Shown piece by piece: positions 8,925 to 18,787 of a stretch of 32,586 nt of DNA. Each line of letters starts with the position of its first letter. The stretch's first letter is position 1. The DNA is from an uncultured Prevotellaceae bacterium (GTDB taxonomy: Bacteria > Bacteroidota > Bacteroidia > Bacteroidales > Bacteroidaceae). The notes beneath the pieces were generated by a model, which ran no database searches, was not told the DNA's origin, and saw only the letters and a program-made list of their open reading frames with translations. The stretch lies in contig CADAOD010000035.1 of assembly GCA_902789415.1 (NCBI GenBank), positions 1 to 32,586 on the forward strand. Reading direction: 5' to 3'. The position numbers and the translations under genes were made by a program.

Positions 8925-9010
8925 AACACAGAGGTACAGAGATACAGAGGTTTTATTTTTTTTCGTTATCTTCCTAATAAAATAACTCTGTACCTCTGTA
9001 TCTCTGTGTT
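8925..9010 (-). repeat. Inverted-repeat element, copy A (ORF-less)
   Basis: Read on the minus strand, the 5' arm (9010-8986) is A plus the octamers ACACAGAG, ATACAGAG, GTACAGAG. The 3' arm (8949-8925) is its near inverse. Both arms are 25 of 25 identical to those around the GxxExxY gene at 14801-15305. The 36-nt core keeps the inner edges TTTTAT and ATAAAA but has no ORF. It starts 7 nt after the nadC stop and ends 28 nt before the dipeptidase start, so it would be a hairpin in the shared transcript. Confidence 0.85.
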
Positions 9011-9869: not shown

Positions 9870-9909
9870 AAATACTTTAATTCTTTTTTATTTTTTTATT
9901 CTTTAATTC

Positions 9910-10413
9910 TTAAAAGTATATTCCAAATCCGATTCGCACGCCAAAACCTGAGTAGTCAGAATCCTTGGTGCTGTGCTCGTAATACACCTCGGGTTCAACA
10001 GTAAGCTTACCTGTAAGGAAATAAGCATAACCTACGCTCAGCTCTGGACGGAAATCGCTAAAATCGTCGCACTTTACATACTTGGCAGTAGCGCCAGCAT
10101 ACAAGCCGCAACTCTCAAAATAGTAGCGCAAGCCGGCACCAAGCTGTATAGCGTCAGGAAAATCGGTCTGAGCCTCGTACCCCAACTGTCCAACTACCAT
10201 CCAGTCGTCGGCCAGTAGATATCCAGCCTTAGCCTGCAGGTTCAGATTCCAGTCGGTACCCTTGTGGTAGCTCAAAGCGGCACCCGAAGTAGAAGCACCC
10301 ACATAGAACTTACCCTGAGTAAATACCTTTTCCGACTGGTTGAGGTACTGTGCGTTTGCACCGATTGCCATCATCAGGCCGATGGCAGCCATTATCAACT
10401 TTTTCATAATCAT
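9910..10413 (-). CDS. Small outer-membrane beta-barrel protein
   Basis: A 167-residue protein with a signal peptide ending IGANA before Q. The mature chain alternates in the way of an eight-strand OmpA/OmpX-type barrel and ends in an aromatic strand (GVRIGFGIYF). No function can be assigned. The first ATG at 10413 gives a TAATG overlap with the cstA stop. The second ATG, two codons later (10407), gives a more usual signal peptide and may be the real start. Either way it follows cstA directly and is probably co-transcribed with it. Confidence 0.8.
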   Translation of the reverse strand: MIMKKLIMAAIGLMMAIGANAQYLNQSEKVFTQGKFYVGASTSGAALSYHKGTDWNLNLQAKAGYLLADDWMVVGQLGYEAQTDFPDAIQLGAGLRYYFESCGLYAGATAKYVKCDDFSDFRPELSVGYAYFLTGKLTVEPEVYYEHSTKDSDYSGFGVRIGFGIYF

Positions 10414-13532: not shown

Positions 13533-14786
13533 ATGGAAAGAACTTGGAGATGGTTTGGCAAGAAGGACAAGATTACTCTTGCACAACTGAGACAAATCGG
13601 TGTTGAGGGCATTGTTACCGCTCTGCACGATGTACCCCTTGGCGAAGTTTGGACTCGCGAAAAAATTCGCGACCTGCGCGAGTACATAGAGAGCTACGGT
13701 ATGCGCTGGAGCGTAGTTGAATCACTGCCCGTTGTTGAGACAATCAAATACGGTGGTCCCGATCGCGATCACCAGATCGAGGTTTACAAAGAGAGTCTGC
13801 GTAACCTTGCTGCCGAAGGCATCCACTGCATCTGCTACAACTTTATGCCCGTATTAGACTGGGCCCGCACCGACTTGTTCCACGACAACCCCAACGGTGC
13901 CACTAACCTCTATTTCAACTATGCCGAATTTGCTTATTTCGACATTTATATCTTGAAGCGTCCAGGCGCTCGCGAGGAATGGGAGAAGTTCCAGTTCCCC
14001 GAGGGATGGGGCAAGGGCCGCAGCGTCATCGCTGAGTGCGACGAGCTGGCTAAGACCATGACACCCGAGAAGGACCACAAGCTGGTTGAGAATATTGTGA
14101 TTAAGACTCAGGGATTCGTAAGCGGTAACTTCAGCGAGAACGACGAGGCTCCTGTACAGAAGTTCCGCGAGTTCCTCGATCTGTATAAGGGCATCGATAA
14201 GGCTAAGCTGCGTGCCAACATGAAGTACTTCCTCGAGGCTATCATGCCTGTTTGCGAAGAGTGCAACATGAACATGTGTGTTCACCCCGACGATCCCCCT
14301 ATCGAGATTCTGGGCTTGCCTCGTATCGTTCGCACCGAGGAGGATATCCAGTGGTTCCTGGATGCTGTGCCCAACAAGCATAACGGACTCACCTTCTGTG
14401 CTGGTTCGCTCTCTGCTGGCGCTTATAACAATGTGGTTGAGTTGGCTAAGAAGTTTGCCTCTCGCACACACTTTGTTCACCTGCGTTCATGCCACATCTT
14501 CCCCAATGGCGACTTTACTGAGGCCTCTCACCTGGGCGGTCGTGCCGACCTGATTGAGCTGTGTCGTATCTTCGAGAAGGAGAACCCAGAATTGCCTATG
14601 CGTGTGGATCATGGTATGACCTTTACCGATGAGCCTGGTGGAATTATGGACGAGAGCAGTCACGGTCACAATGCCGGTTACACTCTCTTGGGTCGTATGT
14701 TCGCCCTCGGTCAGGTACAGGGTATCCTCGCCACCGTTGATCGCGAATTAGGCATCGAATATAAACAACCCGGATTCTTTGATTAA
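13533..14786 (+). CDS. uxuA: Mannonate dehydratase
   Basis: A 417-residue mannonate dehydratase. It removes water from D-mannonate to give 2-keto-3-deoxygluconate in the glucuronate branch of uronate catabolism. The family opening (TWRWFGKKDKITLAQLRQIGVEGIVTALHDVP) is intact, with further landmarks CVHPDDPP, HFVHLRS and the metal/base region RVDHGMTF. Length is slightly above the enterobacterial form, as is usual in Bacteroidetes. It precedes uxuB, the enzyme that makes its substrate, but the GxxExxY repeat element now separates them. It fits metabolically with the kdgF and susCD genes about 10 kb to the left. Confidence 0.95.
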   Translation: MERTWRWFGKKDKITLAQLRQIGVEGIVTALHDVPLGEVWTREKIRDLREYIESYGMRWSVVESLPVVETIKYGGPDRDHQIEVYKESLRNLAAEGIHCICYNFMPVLDWARTDLFHDNPNGATNLYFNYAEFAYFDIYILKRPGAREEWEKFQFPEGWGKGRSVIAECDELAKTMTPEKDHKLVENIVIKTQGFVSGNFSENDEAPVQKFREFLDLYKGIDKAKLRANMKYFLEAIMPVCEECNMNMCVHPDDPPIEILGLPRIVRTEEDIQWFLDAVPNKHNGLTFCAGSLSAGAYNNVVELAKKFASRTHFVHLRSCHIFPNGDFTEASHLGGRADLIELCRIFEKENPELPMRVDHGMTFTDEPGGIMDESSHGHNAGYTLLGRMFALGQVQGILATVDRELGIEYKQPGFFD

Positions 14787-14800
14787 ATCAATTTATTTTA

Positions 14801-15305
14801 AACACAGAGATACAGAGGTACAGAGGTTTTATGAACGAGATGAGAGACTTGTCGAAAGAAGATTTAAATGAACTAAATGCTCTTACCAAAAAGATCATTG
14901 GCGCAGCAATCGAAGTACACAAGGAGATTGGCCCGGGACTTTTGGAATCAGCATATGAGTTTTGCTTAAAGGCAGAACTTGAAAAACAAGGTCTCATTGT
15001 CAAGACACAAATTGATCTGCCTCTTTACTACAAAGGTATTCCTACAGGAAAGTTCTATAGAATTGACATGCTTGTAGAGGATAAGGTTATCATTGAGTTG
15101 AAAGCTGTCGAGGCACTTCTGCCTATCCACGAAGTTCAGCTTGTTACATATCTTAAACTAACAAACAAGAGCATCGGACTACTCATCAACTTTAATGTAC
15201 CAGTACTTAAAGATGGTATAAAACGAAAAATCAATGCACATCTTGAGTATACCGGCATCAAACCCATAAGAGAATAAAAACTCTGTATCTCTGTACCTCT
15301 GTGTT
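14801..15305 (+). mobile_element. Inverted-repeat element, copy B, carrying GxxExxY gene
   Basis: A 505-bp unit bounded by 25-nt arms. The 5' arm (14801-14825) is A plus the octamers ACACAGAG, ATACAGAG, GTACAGAG; the 3' arm (15281-15305) is inverse except at two positions. The ORF begins 5 nt inside the left arm and its stop is 3 nt before the right arm, so the unit is arm-gene-arm with nothing spare. Copies A and C have the same arms without the gene. I see no convincing target duplication and no transposase, so the means of spread is unknown. Confidence 0.7.
14831..15277 (+). CDS. GxxExxY protein, PD-(D/E)XK nuclease-like
   Basis: A 148-residue protein of the GxxExxY family, named after G36-L-L-E39-S-A-Y42 here. 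The family is placed in the PD-(D/E)XK nuclease superfamily, and the pattern is complete: helix with E39, then D79, then E89-L-K91 on the next strand, and Q103-x3-Y107 as the following helix motif. The predicted active site therefore looks intact. No signal peptide. No biological role is established that I know of. The ATG overlaps the repeat edge (GGTTTTATG), and the ATG at 14840 (Met4) is an alternative. The gene splits uxuA from uxuB and has nothing to do with uronates; it looks like inserted cargo or the engine of the repeat family. Confidence 0.88.
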   Translation: MNEMRDLSKEDLNELNALTKKIIGAAIEVHKEIGPGLLESAYEFCLKAELEKQGLIVKTQIDLPLYYKGIPTGKFYRIDMLVEDKVIIELKAVEALLPIHEVQLVTYLKLTNKSIGLLINFNVPVLKDGIKRKINAHLEYTGIKPIRE

Positions 15306-15325: not shown

Positions 15326-16912
15326 ATGAAACTGAATGATATTTTTAGCGGTAATTACAATGCCGCAGAGTGGGAAGCTAAGGGCTACCAGCTTCCTAAG
15401 TTTGATATCAAGGCTGTACGCGAAAAGACAGCCAAGGAGCCTACATGGGTACACTTCGGTGGCGGAAACATCTTCCGCGCTTTCCCTGCTGCCATCCTGA
15501 ACGATGCACTGAACACTGGTAAGTACGATCGCGGTGTGATTGTAGCCGAGACTTTCGACTTCGAGGTTATCGATAAGGCTTATGCCCCCTACAACAACCT
15601 TTCGCTGTGCGTAAACCTCTGCTCTGATGGTTCTATCGAGAAGAAGGTGATTGCCAGCGTAACCGAAGCCCTGAAAGCCGACCCACAGTTTGAGGATTGG
15701 AACCGACTGGTTGAAATCTTCAAGAACCCATCATTGCAGATGATTTCGTTCACCATCACCGAGAAGGGTTACACCTACAACGAGGCCGATCTGGCTCGCG
15801 GACTCAAGCCCCTCTTCGCTATGGGTAAGGTTTGCGCCCTGCTGTTGGAGCGTTTCAACGCCGGACAGCTGCCTCTCACCGTTCAGAGCATGGACAACTG
15901 CTCGCACAACGGCGATAAGGTAAAGGCTGGTGTATTTGCTTATGCCGAGCGCTGGGTGAACGACGGACTGGTGCCTGCTGCCTTCCTGGACTATCTGAAG
16001 GACGAGAAGAAAATTACCTTCCCATGGTCGATGATTGATAAGATTACCCCTCGCCCCCACGAGAAAGTGAAGGAGCTGCTGGCTGCTGATGGTTTCGACG
16101 ACAACAACTATATCGAGACCGAGAAGCACACCTTTACGGCTCCTTTCGTGAATGCCGAAGAGGTACAGTATCTGGTTATCGAGGACAACTACACCAACGG
16201 TCGTCCACCATTGGATCTTGGCGGTGCACTCTACACTACTCGCGAGACCGTTGATAAGGTAGAGACCATGAAGGTTACCACCTGCTTGAACCCACTGCAC
16301 ACCGCTATGAGTATCTATGGCTGCATGCTGGGCTACACCTTGATTTCTGCCGAGATGGCCGACGAGGACCTTCGTCCATTCGTTCAGAAGCTGGGTTATA
16401 TCGAGGCTATGCCTGTAGTAGTTGATCCAGGTGTGCTGAACCCATACGAGTTTATCGGTGCTGTTATCAATCGCCGTTTGCCAAACCCATTCATGCCCGA
16501 TGCTCCACAGCGTATTGCTATGGATACCAGTCAGAAGTTGCCTATCCGTTTCGGCGAGACTCTAAAGAAGTACATCGCTCGTGGTTTGGATAAGAGCAAT
16601 CTGGTACTCATCCCTCTCACACTGGCAGGTTATGCCCGCTACCTGAAGGGTATCAAGGATGATGGTACATCATTCGATTGTTCACCCGACCCCATGCTCG
16701 AGGAACTGCAGGCTATCGTTGCTCCATTGCAGATTGGTAAGGCCGATCAGGATTGGAGCTGTCTGAAGACTCTCTACAGTCGCAAGGACGTGTTTGGTCT
16801 CGACCTTTACGAGGCTGGTCTGGGCGAGCAGATCGAGGGAATGGTTAAGGAACTGTTTGCTGGCAATGGTGCCGTTCGTGCTACCTTGCACAAGTATGTT
16901 TCAGCCCGCTAA
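15326..16912 (+). CDS. uxuB: Fructuronate reductase, mannitol dehydrogenase family
   Basis: A 528-residue long-chain polyol dehydrogenase. It reduces D-fructuronate to D-mannonate with NADH, supplying UxuA. The dinucleotide-binding start VHFGGGNIFRAF is at 42-53. The family active-site residues are visible as N191 (MDNCSHNGDK) and K316, N322 and H325 (MKVTTCLNPLHTAMS). The exact polyol is inferred from adjacency to uxuA; tagaturonate reductase or mannitol dehydrogenase are the alternatives. It starts 20 nt after the right arm of the repeat element with no promoter of its own visible, so it probably depends on read-through from uxuA. A strong hairpin terminator follows. Confidence 0.88.
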   Translation: MKLNDIFSGNYNAAEWEAKGYQLPKFDIKAVREKTAKEPTWVHFGGGNIFRAFPAAILNDALNTGKYDRGVIVAETFDFEVIDKAYAPYNNLSLCVNLCSDGSIEKKVIASVTEALKADPQFEDWNRLVEIFKNPSLQMISFTITEKGYTYNEADLARGLKPLFAMGKVCALLLERFNAGQLPLTVQSMDNCSHNGDKVKAGVFAYAERWVNDGLVPAAFLDYLKDEKKITFPWSMIDKITPRPHEKVKELLAADGFDDNNYIETEKHTFTAPFVNAEEVQYLVIEDNYTNGRPPLDLGGALYTTRETVDKVETMKVTTCLNPLHTAMSIYGCMLGYTLISAEMADEDLRPFVQKLGYIEAMPVVVDPGVLNPYEFIGAVINRRLPNPFMPDAPQRIAMDTSQKLPIRFGETLKKYIARGLDKSNLVLIPLTLAGYARYLKGIKDDGTSFDCSPDPMLEELQAIVAPLQIGKADQDWSCLKTLYSRKDVFGLDLYEAGLGEQIEGMVKELFAGNGAVRATLHKYVSAR

Positions 16913-18703: not shown

Positions 18704-18787
18704 AACACAGAGGTACAGAGAGACAGAGGTTTTATTTTTTTGTTGTTTTCTTTATAAAAGAACTCTGTACCTCTGTATCTCTGTGTT
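18704..18787 (-). repeat. Inverted-repeat element, copy C (ORF-less)
   Basis: Read on the minus strand, the 5' arm (18787-18763) matches copy B at 25 of 25 positions and the 3' arm (18728-18704) at 24 of 25. The 34-nt core resembles that of copy A (TTTTAT, then A-rich, then ATAAAA) and carries no ORF. It starts 10 nt after the stop of the cimA-like gene, inside the leu operon. Confidence 0.85.

Follow-up and report, generated by a model that had tools for sequence, protein, structure and literature searches.

What is a small nuclease-like gene doing in the space between a uxuA-like and a uxuB-like gene, enclosed on both sides by inverted arrays of a short repeat? The locus lies in a stretch of 32,586 nucleotides from an uncultured Prevotellaceae bacterium (contig CADAOD010000035.1 of assembly GCA_902789415.1), and we refer to the whole of that stretch as the window. 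The features discussed here are the following:

8925..9010, gene-less copy with arms at 8925-8949 and 8986-9010
13533..14786, plus strand, left neighbour, UxuA family (Pfam, synteny)
14801..14825, plus strand, left arm, AACACAGAGATACAGAGGTACAGAG, AAC-terminal, with three ACAGAG units at 8-bp spacing (14804, 14812, 14820)
14831..15277, plus strand, GxxExxY / PDDEXK_3 nuclease-like gene, 148 aa (ORF and profile matches)
15281..15305, minus strand, right arm, CTCTGTATCTCTGTACCTCTGTGTT, with three minus-strand ACAGAG units, GTT-terminal
15326..16912, plus strand, right neighbour, mannitol dehydrogenase family, UxuB-like (Pfam, synteny), which we take to be UxuB
18704..18787, gene-less copy with arms at 18704-18728 and 18763-18787

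A first-pass annotation of this DNA had described arms of three tandem octamers each in inverted orientation, an ORF packed from arm to arm, a full PD-(D/E)XK pattern in its product (D79, E89-x-K91, Q103-x3-Y107) and two gene-less copies elsewhere in the window (8925-9010 and 18704-18787). The window coordinates confirm this layout, and the residues of the pattern are near-invariant among 231 aligned proteins. The ATG at 14831 and the TAA at 15275-15277 touch the inner edges of the arms, and these edges, GGTTTTAT on the left and ATAAAA on the right, are common to the gene copy and the copy at 8925-9010. Together the arms form an imperfect palindrome in which the two spacers stand in swapped order. 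Elsewhere in the window, an intergenic A/T-rich stretch of period 8 at 9875-9916 (families D1 and D2) may be a further gene-less unit array, and a 27-bp direct repeat of 93% identity (family D19) occupies 111-137 and 956-982.

By profile, the window protein is a full member of an existing family, matching PF13366 (PDDEXK_3) with an E-value of 1.9e-42 (144.7 bits against a 22-bit cut-off) and TIGR04256 (GxxExxY) with an E-value of 1.8e-44 (150.8 bits against a curated 35-bit cut-off), and it carries the GxGLxExxY motif along with the PD-(D/E)XK residues. In the alignment, D79 and K91 are present in all 231 proteins, E89 in 230, and Q103 and Y107 in 229 each, while N120 is invariant; the gene-finding patterns in three of our four locus sets demanded E39, Y/F42, E89 and K91, and never D79, Q103, Y107 or N120. 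PDDEXK_3 is the sole Pfam match of the window protein at E<=1, a search in which it did not match the HuH-Y1 transposase family, and it is the top family in a tally of all 17 aligned members. No transposase family was found with Pfam among 20 window ORFs (the element ORF and 19 others). Weak similarity to Cas4 appears in 6 of the 17 members at E<=0.01 (Cas4 profile E 0.0097), but Cas4 has four Fe-S cysteines and the window protein has one cysteine, and a PDB profile search gave no significant match. A likeness to T7 endonuclease I is similarly weak, with Phage_endo_I matched in 3 of 17 members (best E 0.007) and a non-significant PDB profile hit at E 0.63. We rejected the reading of a known defence gene, the matches being weak Cas4-like and candidate-system ones, and also that of a phage or plasmid gene, as the window protein used as the only query matched 0 of 50,697 phage records (E<=1e-5) and 8 of 72,556 plasmid records (E<=1e-8). 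A GxxExxY protein has been reported in an algal virus (PMC12085832). The TIGR04256 and PF13366 family descriptions give neither a function nor a flanking repeat, and the open-licence papers naming GxxExxY do so in passing, with neither role nor arms described there. Searches of the open-licence literature by family name, unit string or nuclease-repeat combination did not find such arms, and eleven distinct unit strings had no match in it.

The first-pass annotation had proposed to look for empty sites between uxuA and uxuB in close relatives, and sites without the gene were found there. Our uxuB survey fetched the best 30 of 68 places, which came from 66 of 150 genus genomes. A uxuA-like gene lies directly upstream of uxuB in 23 of the 30 (the window's own locus included), and the gap between the two genes measures 4-266 bp in 22 of these loci; in the window genome, where it contains the gene, it measures 542 bp. 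The GxxExxY gene is therefore present in 1 of 23 syntenic loci, that of the window genome only, and we rejected a fixed uxuA-element-uxuB layout shared by all relatives. Judged from this comparison of sequences, the window element at uxuA-uxuB looks like an insertion. The gene-less copy at 18704-18787 is likewise absent from the nine other loci among the 10 of 30 fetched that are syntenic (own included), where the gaps are 0-99 bp; one of them (L244) has a possible decayed half of the element. The uxuA-uxuB gaps of the relatives (L141-L170) hold different 9-bp arrays in L144, L146, L155, L160 and L170, among them facing pairs of CCACATTTG-type units in L146 and of GGCACGGAT-type units in L170, and eight direct ACTCAGATT-like units in L144, all three gene-less. 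As different arrays occur in the same short gap, such gaps seem to acquire arrays often. By eye, we also noticed that one gene pair, presumably encoding 2-oxoacid:ferredoxin oxidoreductase subunits, holds a GxxExxY gene with differing units in six genomes (L053, L054, L057, L060, L200, L254); in the window genome (G000 contig C41, L017) it holds an ACAGAG pair without the gene. This is either a site used repeatedly or an old insertion whose arms have changed.

The repeat type that flanks the gene is also dispersed as inverted pairs in the window genome. Its 3.01-Mb draft assembly contains one GxxExxY gene, and the three-unit arm pattern, allowing at most 2 mismatches, has 29 matches (15 forward, 14 reverse) against 0 for the reversed pattern, which shows that the arms are not due to chance. 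By position, the 29 arms form twelve facing pairs, one with the gene and eleven without, and five singles, some of which show a decayed partner by eye; the 16 arm contexts that were printed look intergenic, also by eye. The first-pass annotation had counted it against mobility if arms lay mostly away from any GxxExxY gene, and literally this is the case for 27 of the 29, but non-autonomous copies predict the same.

The family is widespread, being found in 76 of 120 genus genomes and in 152 of 296 genomes of the phylum Bacteroidota, with 1-12 matches per genome that has it. In the first 30 genus loci, tandem arms of an 8-9 bp unit surround most of the genes, and the unit differs between genes. 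Our cross-phylum set (80 loci of 573 confirmed) shows like arms in Bacteroidota, Acidobacteria, cyanobacteria, Chloroflexi, Planctomycetes, Verrucomicrobia, Lentisphaerae, Desulfobacteraceae, a gammaproteobacterium and others. Autocorrelation over 211 flanks peaks at lag 9 (17.5% of flanks over threshold) and lag 8 (10%), followed by lags 18 (3.3%) and 10 (1.9%), whereas shuffled flanks gave 0% at lags 8 and 9 and segments 1 kb away gave 1.1% of 187. Upstream and downstream flanks resemble each other with a similarity score of at least 18 in 64 of 103 loci, compared with 6 of 309 mismatched partners and 0 of 79 far controls; this comparison left out L061 and loci with short flanks. In 24 of the 103 loci the score is below 13 in both orientations, and in 29 (one place counted twice, as L047 and L062) the direct match beats the inverted one by more than 4 points. 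At some loci, such as L067 and L124, the gene lies between two complete facing pairs in direct repeat.

The loci were chosen as the best-scoring family matches, L200-L219 being drawn from genomes that have ACAGAG matches and L250-L269 for the most part from genomes rich in ACGGATT or ACATAGTAA matches; the latter two patterns were built from gene flanks already seen. Rows were dropped for lack of an open frame (L086, L137), as the same record as another (L035, same as L061) or where no gene was found (L267), and some analyses left out L062, which is the place of L047, and 2 of 89 held-out loci. Among the family matches, pairs 0.5-0.75 kb apart from start to start (G086 C68, L042; G241 C4, L327; G347 C1, L344) are possibly tandem duplications through the repeats, and matches with one internal stop codon (G384 C3, G416 C24, G389 C3, G422 C3, G095 C212) are likely decaying copies.

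Despite their differing sequences, the arms follow a common geometry, which we counted using units loosely fitting C-R-C-N-R-A-K. A chain of at least three units occurs at 84 of 145 loci and in 130 of 286 flanks; among the controls, 10 of 286 reversed flanks and 1 of 184 distant segments have one. In a scan of spacings from 5 to 16, unit pairs number 136 at spacing 8, 305 at 9, 174 at 10, 58 at 11 and 60 at 16, with at most 6 each at 5-7, while the reversed flanks gave 52, 26 and 21 at 8-10. The chains usually end at three units: of the 460 flanks of both sets, 3 have no unit, 118 have a longest chain of one unit, 166 of two, 154 of three, 17 of four and 2 of seven (19 longer than three), and of the reversed flanks 91 have a longest chain of two, 12 of three and 1 of five. 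Taking the three inward units per side at 43 loci, the spacer length matches between arms at 83 of 86 positions when mirrored and at 55 of 86 crosswise. Spacers are unequal in at least one arm at 17 loci and in both arms at 14, and in all 14 of the latter the outer-to-inner order is kept (sign test 1.2e-4, ignoring relatedness). The spacer letters match in 16 of 52 cases against 18 of 52 crosswise. As the lengths of the spacers are mirrored but their letters are not, the arms would seem to be series of protein-binding sites in double-stranded DNA and not a hairpin kept by selection, and we set aside a hairpin or RNA as the main selected feature.

Dispersal of the arms is not limited to the window genome. 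Over the same 120 genus genomes, the highest counts of the ACAGAG type are 113 (G087), 28 (the window genome, G000) and 23 (G034); those of ACGGATT are 123 (G034), 94 (G006) and 40 (G025); and those of ACATAGTAA, which are partly local arrays beside the gene, are 21 (G030), 14 (G100) and 13 (G023). A gene with matching arms is present in G087, G000 and G025, and the two genomes whose gene arms are ACAGAG-like, G087 and G000, have the highest and second-highest counts of that type among the 120; G087 and G025 came from the first batch, selected by family score only. G116 and G045 also have a gene with matching arms, found after the counts were seen, and this agreement is not an unbiased sample because the loci were picked from arm-rich genomes. 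Arm number follows gene presence in the genus for two of the three unit types, with 237 ACAGAG arms in the 76 genomes with the gene against 15 in the 44 without (p 7e-4), 419 against 72 ACGGATT arms in the same genomes (p 0.005) and 84 against 12 ACATAGTAA arms (p 0.10, not significant). The GxxExxY gene was not found in five draft genomes with at least 5 arms of one type (G035, G048, G081, G082, G103), and the gene flanks inspected in four more genomes lack the abundant arm type of their genome (G034, 5 of 5 genes seen; G006, 2 of 3; G072, 3 of 4; G015, 1 of 1), some of their units being one or two letters off that type. Outside the genus, matches to CGCARAG arms in both orientations number 39, 92 and 32 in three cyanobacterial genomes and 14 in each of two Flavobacteriales genomes; a Desulfobacteraceae genome has 2, which may be just the gene's own arms, a Chryseobacterium has 0, and the control gave 0. 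Such arms occur at more than two places in 5 of the 7 genomes reached via cross-phylum loci.

Inspected by eye, 8 of the 10 ACAGAG copies fetched from G034 are near-identical over about 105-120 bp at differing sites, reaching about 15-20 bp past the arms. Three copies stand out, as L366 differs inside, L367 is without a left arm and L360 meets a contig end. Several of the copies stop at different points, four have a further right-hand stretch in common, and one (L368) is nested within an ACGGATT array. The ten ACGGATT copies in G006 behave like those of G034, but are longer, and two of them (L370 and L376) are the same sequence on two contigs. Gene-less copies in the two genomes extend about 15-40 bp beyond the arms, and we saw by eye no clear target-site duplication on the 10 + 10 copies, whose ends are ragged.

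Protein and unit are inherited together. The units differ from one element to another, and their identity correlates with that of the protein (Mantel r 0.516, p 2e-4, 84 loci), as it would from co-inheritance by itself; relatedness is ignored by the Fisher, Mantel and sign tests used here. Among the 25 strongest residue-unit pairs, uncorrected for relatedness, 10 fall within residues 15-31 and 15 elsewhere, and residues 19, 20, 23, 26, 27, 30 and 31, all among the strongest, have the spacing of one helix face. Where unit base 5 is G, residue 19 is T in 33, S in 22, and C, A or a gap in 1 each; where it is A, residue 19 is A in 12, S in 10, and I, T or V in 1 each. Before reading the held-out flanks we fixed a rule by which G goes with T, S or C and A goes with A, with S allowed. 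In those flanks, base 5 G came with T in 11, S in 6 and G in 1, and base 5 A with S in 7, A in 3 and V in 1. Fisher tests on these gave p 0.045 for residue 19 A against base A and p 0.0012 for T against base G, T not having been singled out by the written rule. A quick tree (113 rows, helix columns removed) was poorly resolved, and residue 19 was not its best column (5 supported pairs); as it had too few supported branches, we used instead a careful tree built without the columns of residues 19 and 20. Of 11-13 independent pairs on the trees, 4.8-6.1 go in the same direction and 0.0-0.1 in the opposite one (median p 0.03-0.06), so that the association of residue 19 with unit base 5 has modest tree-aware support and is suggestive. 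The pairing of base 2 with residue 29 failed in the held-out loci (p 0.31). Base 7 with residue 20 (held-out Fisher p 0.003) was set aside, as base 7 changes too rarely on the trees, and so was base 4 with residue 50 (p 0.005), with tree pairs of 2.6 same and 0 opposite of 8. Only 29 of 87 held-out loci show units under the single unit pattern, and other unit classes are therefore described by eye only.

The closest analogy that we see is to REP/BIME-RAYT systems (REPtrons), in which, according to PMC6006769, a repeat type generally has a single enzyme gene, in many cases with the repeats on its flanks, and the RAYT enzyme is thought to mobilise the repeats, the REPtron apparently being immobile as a unit. 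The elements described here share the inverted repeat pairs and the repeat-flanked enzyme gene, and the dispersal of the repeat type as inverted pairs is seen in the window genome and unmatched in several relatives. The differences are that the enzyme here is a PD-(D/E)XK nuclease by profile where RAYT is a HuH-Y1 protein, that three short units with mirrored spacing seem to take the place of a palindrome that folds and has a GT[AG]G foot, and that the unit sequences are many. We read the nuclease element as working like REP/RAYT without its enzyme, with movement that would be driven by the nuclease.

IS elements and MITEs likewise combine a gene copy with shorter gene-less copies that have like ends. 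The present elements resemble them in having a gene-bearing copy and shorter gene-less copies with the same ends, and differ in that the scanned window ORFs include no transposase, no target-site duplication was seen and the ends are ragged.

We consider it probable that the window locus belongs to a large class of nuclease-encoded repeat elements whose movement is driven by the activity of the protein. For the architecture, spread, presence and absence at sites and dispersal described above, the simplest explanation would be an element with gene-less derivatives that has a single gene, the nuclease reading its ends. From the patterns above we infer binding, cutting, a unit-reading part of the protein and nuclease-driven movement. 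In such a scheme, a PD-(D/E)XK protein of about 130 aa would recognise the short unit and bind the three units at each end as double-stranded DNA, perhaps reading them with an N-terminal segment (residues ~15-31). The ends, usually of three units at 8-10 bp spacing in mirrored order, would be cleaved at or near the arms, and repair of the break would copy or move the element and its gene-less derivatives to other intergenic sites. The first-pass proposal of an autonomous unit with non-autonomous derivatives thus holds in part, being favoured by the gene unit with its gene-less copies and by presence and absence at sites, with the matching gene missing for many repeat families on the other side. 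Its proposal of mobility has in its favour the near-identical copies without the gene that are spread over different sites of a relative, and against it the ragged ends and the lack of a target-site duplication by eye; catalysis of the movement by the nuclease is predicted. Repeat families lacking a matching gene and ragged ends, the chief difficulties for this reading, would fit gene loss after spread and repair-type copying, and would fit a passenger or homing-like history too.

In a homing-like history, the gene-less hairpins would be older, and the nuclease gene would spread by cutting a hairpin and being copied into or beside one. The inner edges shared by the gene and gene-less window copies, the genes lying between two complete facing pairs (L067, L124) and the 29 of 103 loci with a better direct match all point this way, yet relatives lack this hairpin at both sites (gaps of 4-266 and 0-99 bp, some with other arrays and some with none), which indicates that the arms arrived there by insertion too, and gene-less copies reach new sites by themselves; we regard this history as unlikely. 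It is a little less likely again that the repeats are moved by another enzyme, with the GxxExxY gene as cargo or a resolvase-like helper. That unit type tracks the nuclease sequence argues against such a passenger, as does the lack of a transposase family among the 20 window ORFs, even though many arm families are without a matching gene in their own draft genome, the gene-less copies of G034 and G006 run about 15-40 bp past the arms and the protein has weak kinship to phage endonuclease I (3 of 17 members, with the PDB match at E 0.63 not significant). Our arm searches covered GxxExxY surroundings and three unit patterns, and another gene family sharing the arms could escape them.

A settled host function, with the arms serving as sites for transcription or chromosome architecture and with a regulatory role for the nuclease-like protein, would account for the intergenic look of the 16 contexts, for a gene common in the phylum (152 of 296 genomes), and for its rarity on plasmids and absence from the phage records searched. 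We think this improbable, as the gene is patchy, with 1-12 matches per genome that has it, presence varies at individual sites, the unit sequence shifts between elements, and tandem and interrupted copies occur.

Returning to the reading of mobile nuclease-encoded elements, a broader version of it seems to us possible, though we would put it at somewhat less than even. Here the elements would form a cross-phylum class of mobile DNA whose sole enzyme is a small PD-(D/E)XK nuclease reading a fast-changing 7-8 bp word, three per end, that may be the source of a large part of the short repeats found between genes in Bacteroidota, cyanobacteria and others. If nuclease and word co-evolve in this way, the family would hold a readable protein-DNA recognition code.

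GxxExxY genes occur in about half of the sampled Bacteroidota genomes, with no assigned role in the open-licence literature searched, and our analysis links them to a defined DNA site whose geometry has been counted, giving the family a testable substrate. If the proposed mechanism is true, it would account for a class of intergenic repeats that has lacked an explanation and add a nuclease-only route to mobility. It would also mean that the family provides a small natural DNA-reading protein, the code of which could be solved by comparing elements.
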